The position numbers were made by a program, and so were the translations under genes. From the NCBI GenBank assembly GCA_937960435.1, contig CALGPN010000047.1, positions 1 to 52,766 on the forward strand: 52,766 bases of DNA. Reading direction: 5' to 3'. The notes under the pieces were generated by a model. It made no database searches. It worked only from the letters and a program-made list of their open reading frames with translations, and was not told where the DNA came from. This document shows, piece by piece, positions 970-4,514 of the stretch (its first letter is position 1; the number at the start of each line of letters is the position of its first letter). The DNA comes from an uncultured Desulfosoma sp. (GTDB taxonomy: Bacteria > Desulfobacterota > Syntrophobacteria > Syntrophobacterales > DSM-9756).

Positions 970-1782
970 CTAAAAGCCTTTGCGGCGTCTTGCGTTCCTC
1001 TTTCGTGAAAGAATCCCGCTGGCCACAAGCCCTGAGCCCAGGAGCAGCATCGTTGCGGGCTCCGGGATGGCCTGAGGCGGGCCGCCTCCATTTGTCCACG
1101 TCACATCGTGAGACCCGGGATTGTTTTCCAAAGTTGTACGAATTTGAGTTTGACCTTGGTTATTCGTCTCCAACGCCATGACGTCGAAATGGATCCAATC
1201 GAGTTGAAGAGTTCCCAATTGAAACGTGATAACCTTTATTTCACCTTTTGCCGAACCCAATTCAGTCTTGAAATCAGGGACGCTTTCATTATCGGAAAAA
1301 TTACCTATATCAAAATAAAGAAAATCAGCAATGTTAGCTTTAACCGGGTAATGTTCATTAGGGAAATAACTGGGCGTATCGGAAAAATAAAATGCTGAGA
1401 TGGGAGGGGAGCCGTCCACAGCAATCTTCAGATCGGTGTAATAAGTTAAAAGATCGTTAGATGATTCGGGAACTGAAACCAACAATATGGCGTTGTGACC
1501 ATCAAAGACAGATGGGAAGCCGAAATCACTCCACTTCTTCCCGTCTGAGTATTGCCCCCCGAGCTGAAGGGATGAATTTTGATTTTGGTTCTGAGCCCTC
1601 ACCCCTGCCACGTAAAGAGTGTCACCCGTTGTGAAAGCCGTGTCTTCATCAGAACCTATAGTGGTATAGTCCACATACCCGCCTGACCCATCCGGCACCC
1701 CCACCTGGAGAATGGGGACGGCCAAGACCGAGGCAGGCAGGGCGACAGCGAGGATCATCAGCAACAACGTGATTTTTCTCAT
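970..1782 (-). CDS. PEP-CTERM sorting-signal surface protein
   Basis: A 270-residue exported protein. It begins with a signal peptide (MRKITLLLMILAVALPASVLA) and ends with a PEP-CTERM tail: the motif IPEPAT, a hydrophobic stretch (MLLLGSGLVASGIL) and a basic end (RKRNARRRK). In known systems exosortase recognises this tail and delivers the protein to the cell surface, often with exopolysaccharide. The middle matches no domain I can name; it is rich in Asp, Asn, Ser and aromatic residues, like secreted beta-rich proteins. No exosortase lies in the window. The start is supported by AAAGGAG just upstream of the ATG. The gene is clearly richer in A and T than its neighbours, which may mean recent acquisition. 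It has its own sigma-54-type promoter and terminator, so it is probably a single-gene unit. Confidence 0.88.
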   Translation of the reverse strand: MRKITLLLMILAVALPASVLAVPILQVGVPDGSGGYVDYTTIGSDEDTAFTTGDTLYVAGVRAQNQNQNSSLQLGGQYSDGKKWSDFGFPSVFDGHNAILLVSVPESSNDLLTYYTDLKIAVDGSPPISAFYFSDTPSYFPNEHYPVKANIADFLYFDIGNFSDNESVPDFKTELGSAKGEIKVITFQLGTLQLDWIHFDVMALETNNQGQTQIRTTLENNPGSHDVTWTNGGGPPQAIPEPATMLLLGSGLVASGILSRKRNARRRKGF

Positions 1783-2443: not shown

Positions 2444-4249
2444 CTATTTGATGACCGTCACGGACTTGGTTCCTTCATTCCCGGCGGCATCGACGGCGAC
2501 GGCCTTGATGGTATGAGGCCCTGAGGCGTAATTGCTCGTGTTCCAAGAGAAACTCAGGGTCGACGCTGTGGTGGAGGCTTTGATGACGCCGTCGATAAAG
2601 CACTGGATGCCGGTGACCTTCACGTTGTCCGTAGCTTGGATGGAAATGGTCACTTTCTTTGACACCACAGAGCCGTCGGCGGGACTCGTGATGGTCACGA
2701 CGGGCGGCTGGCTGTCCACGGGATCGGGGATATTGTCCACGGTGACCGCTACGGCTTTGGAAACCCCTTCGTTTCCGGCCTTATCCCACGCCTTGGCCGT
2801 GAGCGTCAGGGACCCGTCGGCAAAGGCGGTGGTATCGAGACTGAACCGGTACGGGGCTTCCGAGGTTTCGGCGACAAGACTCCCGTTGGCATAGAGCGCG
2901 ACGCGAAGGACGCCGACGTTATCCGATGCGGAAACATCGACGGCAAGGGTTCCGGAAACCTTGGTTCCCGCGGCCGGCGACGTGACGGTGACGACGGGCG
3001 CTTCAATGTCCACGGGTTTGGTTTCCAGGGCGGCGAGCACGGCTGCCTGGGCGTCCACACGGCCGTGGCCGTAAAAGGTGTCCCAGCCGGCCGTTCCCAA
3101 GTCCACCGCGGTTTCTTCAAGGAGTCTTTCCACTTGGTCGGGCGAGAGGCTGGGGTTCAGGGAAAAGAGGAGGGCTCCGACGGCCGCCGCCGCAGGGCTT
3201 GAAAAGGACGTCCCTGAGACGCTGGCATAATCGCCGCCTCGCGCCGTCGTCAGGATGCCCGAACCGGGGGCGGCCACATCCACGAAGTTGCCGTAACTGG
3301 ACCAGCTCGCCTTGGTGTCTGTGCTTGTGGTCGCCGAAACACTGATGATGGCCGGGTTTTCCGGCGTGCTTTCAAAGGCCCCGGTGTTTCCCGCCGAGGC
3401 GAACACAAGCCCGCCTTTTTGACGAAAGTAATTGGCGGCGCTGGTCACGGTGGAACTTCCCGTGACCATGTAGCTGATGTTGGCCACACGGGCGCCGTGA
3501 TCCGCCGCCCAGGTGAGACCGCTGGCGATGGTGCTGTAATAGGCGTAGCCGTCGGGCTGGCTGATGCGCACGGGCATGATTTTGGTGTTCCACGCGAGGC
3601 TCGCCACACCCACGGCGTTATTGGCGGCGGCGCCGATCACCCCGGCCACGTTGGTCCCGTGGCCGTAGACATCCGAGGTGTCCGCGTTGTTGTCGTACAT
3701 GTTCCAGCCGGGGACGAGTTTTCCCACAAAATCCGGGTGGGTGCCGTCCACACCGGTATCGAGAACCGCCGCGACGACCCCGTCACCAAGCGTGTAATCC
3801 CAAGCCGCGGGGGCTTTCATGAGGGGAAGGTGCCATTGGCTCGCATATTTGGGGTCGTTGGGGATTGTGTCGTCCGGGGGGATCAGGGCGTCGGGTTCGG
3901 CGAAAGCGATTTTCGGGTGTTTTGAAAGGGCGCGGGCCACAGCCTCTTCCGCCCGGGGCGGGACGGAAACTACGTGGACACGGATTTGATGGAGCGCCCC
4001 GAGACGACGGCCGCCGTGTTCGAAGAGCACATCATCCAGTTCCGCGTCACTGACCCCGACCCGAGCCTGGACGAGAATGCGGCCTTGGGCCCACGGGGGC
4101 TTTTGGGCCCAGGCCGTGGCACCGAGGAGCAAAGAAAAAAGCACGGCACCGAGGAACGCAAGACTCCACAAGGAAAGGACAGGGCCGGCACTTGCAACGC
4201 AGGCCCGAAAAGCGGAAAAGGTCGCAGCGGGTCGTTTTGGGAAAGACAT
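2444..4249 (-). CDS. Secreted subtilisin-like (S8) serine protease with two Ig-like domains
   Basis: An exported endopeptidase of 601 residues. In order: signal peptide ending ATAWA; an I9/fervidolysin-like propeptide (about residues 55-125); the S8 catalytic domain with Asp163 (VLDTGVDG), His197 (GHGTNVAG), the oxyanion-hole Asn in ASAGN and Ser348 (SGTSFSSP); then two Ig-like repeats of about 90 residues, each opening PPVVTITSPA or close to it and each carrying KAxDxAGNEG near its end. The start is placed at the ATG preceded by GGAGGTGTCCT, 18 codons inside the longest frame. Such proteases process surface or extracellular proteins and feed on external protein. The gene sits behind a c-di-GMP riboswitch, so its output probably follows the switch between motile and sessile life. 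Its exact substrate cannot be told from sequence. Confidence 0.93.
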   Translation of the reverse strand: MSFPKRPAATFSAFRACVASAGPVLSLWSLAFLGAVLFSLLLGATAWAQKPPWAQGRILVQARVGVSDAELDDVLFEHGGRRLGALHQIRVHVVSVPPRAEEAVARALSKHPKIAFAEPDALIPPDDTIPNDPKYASQWHLPLMKAPAAWDYTLGDGVVAAVLDTGVDGTHPDFVGKLVPGWNMYDNNADTSDVYGHGTNVAGVIGAAANNAVGVASLAWNTKIMPVRISQPDGYAYYSTIASGLTWAADHGARVANISYMVTGSSTVTSAANYFRQKGGLVFASAGNTGAFESTPENPAIISVSATTSTDTKASWSSYGNFVDVAAPGSGILTTARGGDYASVSGTSFSSPAAAAVGALLFSLNPSLSPDQVERLLEETAVDLGTAGWDTFYGHGRVDAQAAVLAALETKPVDIEAPVVTVTSPAAGTKVSGTLAVDVSASDNVGVLRVALYANGSLVAETSEAPYRFSLDTTAFADGSLTLTAKAWDKAGNEGVSKAVAVTVDNIPDPVDSQPPVVTITSPADGSVVSKKVTISIQATDNVKVTGIQCFIDGVIKASTTASTLSFSWNTSNYASGPHTIKAVAVDAAGNEGTKSVTVIK

Positions 4250-4336
4250 AGGACACCTCCGACAAAGAATTGGGGTTTTCGGGCAGGAAACGGGAAGGGA
4301 CATCCTCGACGCCGGTCAGGAGGTGTTCCCGTTTCT
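4250..4336 (-). promoter_or_regulatory. Riboswitch expression platform with anti-Shine-Dalgarno
   Basis: On the minus strand the leader contains ACACCTCC (plus-strand 4319-4326), an exact complement of the protease ribosome site GGAGGTGT (plus-strand 4253-4260). A competing stem can form from AAACGGGAA and TTCCCGTTT, with the anti-SD in its loop, and AGGATGT could also pair with the anti-SD. There is no T-run. The layout suggests control of translation rather than of transcription. Confidence 0.6.
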
Positions 4337-4412
4337 TCGGCAGCCCGGCCGTCCCGTTTTTTCTCGGGACCCGTGGCTTTGCGTCCCCGCCTTGCGGCGG
4401 GTTTGCCCTTTC
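4336..4412 (-). ncRNA. Cyclic di-GMP-I (GEMM) riboswitch
   Basis: Read on the minus strand the leader carries the GEMM core in order: GGGCAAAC; a P2 helix CCCGCC/GGCGGG closed by a GCAA tetraloop; GACGCAAAGCCAC; a second helix; and GCCGGGCTGCC at the end. These match the invariant parts of the Vibrio Vc2 aptamer as I recall it. It lies about 90 bases upstream of the S8 protease start, in the right orientation. Confidence 0.87.
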
Positions 4413-4514
4413 GGAAACGCGGGGCCTTTCGGCCCTCAGTGAAGCAATCGGTCGGAGGGCGAGCGGACTTAAATGGTTTTTAATGATTTTTGCCAAGGCG
4501 GCCCAAAGGCCGAG

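Follow-up and report, generated by a model that had tools for sequence, protein, structure and literature searches.

In Pseudomonas, a surface adhesin is set free by proteolysis when c-di-GMP is low, through LapG and LapD, a system in which a c-di-GMP-binding membrane protein acts on the protease. In C. difficile, the zmpI/ppep-1 gene (CD2830), which encodes the secreted zinc metalloprotease PPEP-1, instead has a class-I c-di-GMP riboswitch ahead of it, and c-di-GMP represses it (PMC6366702, PMC11477304); this switch is transcriptional, the substrates CD2831 and CD3246 are sortase-anchored, CD2831 is encoded next to the protease gene, and the substrates have class-II ON riboswitches of their own. 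Among other GEMM-I RNAs, Vc2 of V. cholerae is a translational OFF switch governed by the stability of its P1 helix (PMC9262584). In Geobacter, the gene for the subtilisin-like protease OzpA lies beside that of an extracellular protein, the multihaem cytochrome OmcZ, which OzpA processes (PMC9473688), and in Aquincola, PepA-type PEP-CTERM proteins keep exopolysaccharide cell-bound in flocs, with no c-di-GMP-controlled protease described there (PMC9850573).

The locus considered here lies in a contig of 52,766 nucleotides from an uncultured Desulfosoma sp., analyzed at its full length (the window). By computation, we located a GEMM-I aptamer, its gene, two alternative pairings in the leader, the recurrence of the arrangement in relatives, and a PEP-CTERM neighborhood (Table 1). 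As in C. difficile, a class-I c-di-GMP riboswitch stands before the gene of a secreted protease, the logic is predicted to be OFF, such that low c-di-GMP would yield protease, and a surface-anchored protein is encoded alongside. However, the protease is an S8 serine protease, the switch is predicted to be translational, and the neighbor is an exosortase/PEP-CTERM protein, a candidate substrate only, that lacks a GEMM-I RNA. The likeness to the PPEP-1 module is an analogy, there being no formal family; the riboswitch on a secreted protease is present, and the PPEP-type zinc metalloprotease is not. The aptamer class is shared with Vc2, whereas the target gene and the sequence of the expression platform differ; LapG/LapD has no riboswitch and an unrelated protease family; and the neighbor shares its sorting signal with the PepA-type proteins but belongs to the choice-of-anchor N family. 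Taken as a whole, we consider it probable that the GEMM-I RNA senses c-di-GMP and switches translation of the secreted S8 protease OFF, and that this protease serves to trim or release surface proteins.

Table 1. Features of the riboswitch-protease locus, in window coordinates (SD, Shine-Dalgarno sequence).
Feature	Coordinates	Strand	Description
GEMM-I (c-di-GMP-I) riboswitch aptamer	4335-4417	-	RF03167 and RF01051, both full length
P1 5' strand CGUUUC	4414-4419	-	pairs with 4330-4335
Switching strand GAAACGGGAA	4326-4335	-	3' strand of P1 (4330-4335) or 5' arm of the anti-anti-SD hairpin
Anti-SD ACACCUCC	4319-4326	-	8 nt, perfectly complementary to the SD
GAGGAUGU	4300-4307	-	pairs with the anti-SD within the anti-anti-SD hairpin in the predicted ligand-free state (MFE structure)
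Anti-anti-SD hairpin 3' arm UUCCCGUUUC	4287-4296	-	10 nt, complementary to 4326-4335
SD GGAGGUGU (also GGAGGTGT)	4253-4260	-	3 nt before the ATG at 4247-4249
Secreted S8 (subtilisin-like) protease CDS	2444-4249	-	Peptidase_S8, E 5.2e-47; 601 aa from the likely start
Predicted signal peptide	4106-4249	-	basic start, long hydrophobic core, AWAQ; cleavage likely after AWA
Fervidolysin_NPro-like prodomain	3890-4105	-	PF22148, E 1.9e-7, residues 67-138
S8 catalytic domain	3062-3787	-	PF00082, 161 bits
Two Big_7 Ig-like domains	2447-2998	-	PF17957, two stretches, E 1.9e-34
Neighboring PEP-CTERM surface protein, choice-of-anchor N family	970-1782	-	NF038141, 111 bits (cut-off 40); PF07589

A cmscan search of the whole window against Rfam 15 gave a single match above the gathering score, to RF03167 (c-di-GMP-I-GGC, in a clan shared with GEMM-I), at 4335-4416 on the minus strand (74.6 bits against a cut-off of 59 bits, E 6.2e-16, model positions 1-80 of 80). 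The search with RF01051 that the first-pass annotation had proposed as a check matched 4336-4417 on the same strand with 76.4 bits, far above the cut-off of 35 bits (E 3.4e-15 over the whole genome, model positions 1-87 of 87), and each model has one match in the 3.0-Mb genome. The GEMM core described in that annotation is in place (GGGCAAAC at 4401-4408, GACGCAAAGCC at 4375-4385, and GCCGGGCTGCC at 4339-4349), as is P2 with its GCAA loop. The canonical model scores higher than the "GGC" variant, and while the score for the latter exceeds its threshold, the equivalent of Vc2 A47 is an A (GACGCAAAGCC), at odds with the G of the RF03167 consensus (GACGCGAAGCC); we note that taking this column to define the c-di-GMP-I-GGC subfamily is our own reading of that consensus. 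That the match is accidental or the aptamer decayed, as its single copy in the genome might suggest, is scarcely conceivable, given an E value of 6e-16, an intact core, and a conserved position before orthologous genes, and we discarded a chance match on the scores and full-length extents of both models. We are nearly certain that this leader is a GEMM-I c-di-GMP riboswitch, with ligand binding as its predicted property.

Read in what we take to be the Vc2 numbering of the crystal construct, the aptamer has G at position 20 and A at position 47 (core AAGGGCAAAC). The same genome encodes five GGDEF domains and one EAL domain; four of the former are legible, all of them canonical, with a GGEEF or GGDEF motif and the conserved GD, the residues that c-di-GMP cyclases conserve and Hypr enzymes alter. 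G20 is the selectivity factor for c-di-GMP over cGAMP (PMC9262584), and a GEMM-I aptamer has been made to bind cGAMP through the G20A change (PMC6274999). Because of G20 and the canonical GGDEF domains, the predicted ligand should be c-di-GMP and not cGAMP. Geobacter, from the same broad bacterial group, does have cGAMP-sensing members of the class (PMC6456294); however, with G at position 20 and no Hypr-like domain among the four read in this genome, it is very unlikely that the aptamer senses 3',3'-cGAMP in the manner of the Geobacter GEMM-Ib riboswitches, and we discarded cGAMP as the ligand on these two grounds.

Directly after this sole aptamer lies the sole S8 gene found in the genome. 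The mechanical open reading frame opens at 4303, and its translation (P0001) is thus 18 residues longer than the likely product, the ATG being the likely start judging by the fit of the SD and by the relatives. The closest solved relative is thermitase (1thm, E 3.3e-51), to whose catalytic triad Asp182, His215, and Ser366 (P0001 numbering) align, such that both domain and triad place the protein in family S8. The first-pass annotation had described a c-di-GMP-I riboswitch just upstream of a secreted subtilisin-like protease with two Ig-like domains, and the aptamer, Peptidase_S8, and Big_7 matches bear this out, for a product that appears from its sequence to be exported.

The leader between aptamer and ATG is about 85 nt long, and the aptamer lies in the 5' leader of the gene together with an expression platform. 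When the window leader is folded without constraint, the switching strand pairs with the 3' arm of the anti-anti-SD hairpin, the anti-SD is enclosed, and the probability of SD:anti-SD pairing is 0.01, compared to 0.99 when P1 is forced. The free structure is better than the P1-forced one by about 7.4 kcal/mol, and this gap against P1 would therefore require tight ligand binding or co-transcriptional folding. Since the P1-forced fold pairs the SD with the anti-SD, we think it quite likely that the riboswitch turns translation OFF, as Vc2 does. At low c-di-GMP, the switching strand would pair downstream, the resulting hairpin would hold the anti-SD, and the SD would be left free, allowing the protease to be made and exported. 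At high c-di-GMP, the ligand would stabilize P1 and so destroy the hairpin, whereupon the released anti-SD would pair with the SD and translation would stop. The protease would thus appear upon a fall in c-di-GMP, and would then trim or release a surface or matrix protein, for which the neighboring exosortase-sorted PEP-CTERM protein is the first candidate; ligand binding, the sign of the switch, export, the substrate, and any role in dispersal are what we infer here. No intrinsic terminator was found on the minus strand between aptamer and gene, in a scan that overall yielded no more sites than shuffled sequences, and transcription attenuation in the window leader was discarded because this interval holds no terminator-like site on that strand. 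The scan for sigma-70-like promoters found none.

The layout of the platform is common to six leaders of the P0001 clade. P1 is kept in genomes G007 and G005, retains five of six pairs in G009 and G368, and has six pairs with wobbles in G385. Shuffle tests of the anti-SD gave p values of 0.011 for the window, 0.0025 for G007, and about 0.01 for G368 and G385 (0.0025-0.20 over the six leaders), and those of the anti-anti-SD arm gave about 0.0015 for the window and 0.0005-0.017 in five relatives of the same design. Pair 6 of the anti-anti-SD hairpin is G-C, A-U, or G-U across the six leaders, and in G009 and G368 it is an A-U pair in this hairpin but a mismatch in P1; the arm is kept through compensatory change. 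The anti-SD and SD likewise covary (UCC..GGA in G368, CCC..GGG in G385), and the anti-anti-SD stem of G005 requires a bulge. We note that MAFFT, when applied to the six leaders, put the platform elements in the wrong places and that pairs were counted on elements picked by eye, a procedure that favors the model, such that the shuffle test is the less biased evidence. The folds of the relatives vary: in G005, the probability of SD:anti-SD pairing rises from 0.12 to 0.90 when P1 is forced, forcing P1 does not produce this helix in the folding model for G007 and G009, and in G024 and G026 it forms with and without forcing. Because of these last four leaders, the predicted sign of the switch is not common to every relative. 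Neither platform helix was found in the Thauera and Nitrosomonas leaders.

The pairing of leader and protease that the first-pass annotation suggested looking for in relatives does recur. In a sample of 39 genomes of the order, all four with a close P0001 relative (100, 76, 66, and 47% identity, the window being the 100%) have the aptamer directly upstream, and searches of the whole order and whole class limited the close orthologues to these four, the window included. The aptamer also precedes a more distant S8 lineage in the order (G024 and G026, 31-32% match), relatives elsewhere in the phylum (G368 and G385, 39%), and relatives outside it, in Thauera (51%) and Nitrosomonas mobilis (46%). 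Most of the further orthologues contributed by the phylum sample have no GEMM RNA, and homologues without one are found in G291 and G349 (close ones, 57%) and in several Gammaproteobacteria. Three genomes of the same family (G001, G003, and G004) and a congener (G006) have neither aptamer nor protease relative, and G002 has two GEMM-I RNAs and no protease relative. On the protease tree, six changes of label (gain or loss of the riboswitch) are needed, at least four of them forced by well-supported branches, and riboswitch and protease have therefore been repeatedly joined or separated.

The view of a protease as out of character for a GEMM RNA is not supported. Among the first open reading frames downstream of the GEMM-I RNAs in the order (n = 80), those bearing FN3 domains rank first (18), ahead of several repeat and PKD families and then S8 proteases (6), HDOD proteins (4), pilins (4), and others, including one papain-type protease (L003), such that for a GEMM RNA of this order a secreted protein is an ordinary target; in addition, control of PPEP-1/ZmpI by a class-I c-di-GMP riboswitch was already documented in C. 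difficile (PMC6366702, PMC11477304). The secreted FN3-domain targets carry QVTLAWDA..GYKLYYG, and many have an anti-SD of the same design (L004, L058-L061, L014-L028, and others). At G009:C1:3041694-3041895 (L083), a tandem pair of GEMM-I aptamers precedes one gene.

The next gene downstream of the protease encodes a protein whose PEP-CTERM signal scores above the PF07589 cut-off (C47:1000-1071), and the genome encodes one exosortase (PF09721, E 3.3e-75), both components of the PEP-CTERM/exosortase system thus being present. No GEMM-I RNA precedes this neighbor, the genome having one aptamer. PEP-CTERM genes above the cut-off number three in the window genome (G000), four in G007, one in G005, six in G368, and seven in G385, and in all five genomes one of them adjoins the protease; in G005, the sole detected PEP-CTERM gene adjoins the sole S8 gene. 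Counting loci flanked on both sides, a PEP-CTERM gene lies within about 1.5 kb at 9 of 14 loci of the P0001 clade compared to 0 of 10 other S8 loci (Fisher p 0.0015), and within the same genomes at 5 of 7 compared to 1 of 20 (p 0.0014), p values that are indicative, as the loci are related by descent. Three Gammaproteobacteria that lack a GEMM RNA show such adjacency too, as does Thauera, which has one. Since the neighbor is absent at G009, G075, and L036 and present at the riboswitch-less loci L032-L034, neighborhood and riboswitch are separable, and the pair of protease and PEP-CTERM gene is more widespread than the riboswitch. From the adjacency, the PEP-CTERM protein may be the substrate or partner of the protease, an assignment that we regard as a serious possibility just short of probable.

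Several further observations concern these neighborhoods. The adjacency of PEP-CTERM genes to the protease clade is not confined to one phylum and occurs with and without the riboswitch (window 970-1782; L130-L133, L032-L035). Another S8 gene of G368, different from the first, adjoins a PEP-CTERM gene as well (G368:C1:3457469-3459796), and a protease relative that has no riboswitch (L141, G075:C13:66000-82000) neighbors a series of genes with curlin-like repeats. In a gene-poor stretch of the window, two copies of a REP-like inverted repeat (GTTGGGGTGAGCGCAGCGAACCCCAAC) occur at 530-560 and 658-690.

Other readings of the sign of the switch and of the purpose of the enzyme were weighed as well. 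GEMM-I aptamers serve as ON or OFF switches (PMC9262584), and the subtilisin-like OzpA matures the surface cytochrome OmcZ in Geobacter (PMC9473688), such that the riboswitch could also turn the gene ON or act mainly on transcription, with protease made at high c-di-GMP to mature matrix or surface proteins and not to release them. The failure of P1 forcing to sequester the SD in G007 and G009 would fit this. However, the anti-SD and the anti-anti-SD arm change coordinately and the window leader folds to OFF, the leader holds no minus-strand intrinsic terminator, and there is no multihaem cytochrome among the neighbors of the protease, all of which make such a switch improbable. A partner of the OmcZ/OzpA type was discarded separately, as no haem-rich open reading frame was found near the protease in six genomes.

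Somewhat less unlikely, though still doubtful, is that the protease is a scavenging exoenzyme, its riboswitch tuning the secretion of a nutrient-degrading enzyme to planktonic life, with the PEP-CTERM neighbor being incidental. The S8 domain does resemble broad-specificity subtilisins such as thermitase, the GEMM targets in the order are often other secreted proteins, and the PEP-CTERM neighbor is missing at three loci of the clade, as noted above. On the other hand, PEP-CTERM genes are rare (one in G005, three in G000) and yet adjoin this protease, a placement that the other S8 genes of the same genomes share in just the one case of 20. A role in dispersal, as suggested in the first-pass annotation, gains weight because the logic is predicted to be OFF and a PEP-CTERM gene adjoins: PEP-CTERM proteins bind exopolysaccharide to the cells of flocs (PMC9850573), and cutting one as c-di-GMP falls would therefore loosen the matrix, if adjacency is any guide. 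Extending OFF control of a surface-trimming protease one step further, and tentatively, the locus could be a Gram-negative counterpart of PPEP-1 built from unrelated parts (a GEMM-I RNA, an S8 protease dedicated to PEP-CTERM proteins, and a substrate encoded alongside), in which a fall in c-di-GMP would directly set free exosortase-sorted matrix proteins, and in which the pair of protease and PEP-CTERM gene would predate a riboswitch that came or went on several occasions.

That a riboswitch can govern a secreted protease is known in principle, while the S8/exosortase version is new, and the PEP-CTERM adjacency of this protease clade is a new lead; our literature search found no paper tying GEMM to subtilisins, which is not proof of absence. 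Secreted proteases hereby join the recurrent targets of GEMM-I riboswitches. The function of PEP-CTERM proteins and their removal from the surface are poorly known, although a link of these proteins with floc formation is reported (PMC9850573), and a c-di-GMP-gated protease beside a PEP-CTERM gene would offer a testable route from the second messenger to the loss of a matrix protein. If this account is true, the solution seen in C. difficile, of a riboswitch, a secreted protease, and an anchored adhesin, would have arisen more than once with different components.
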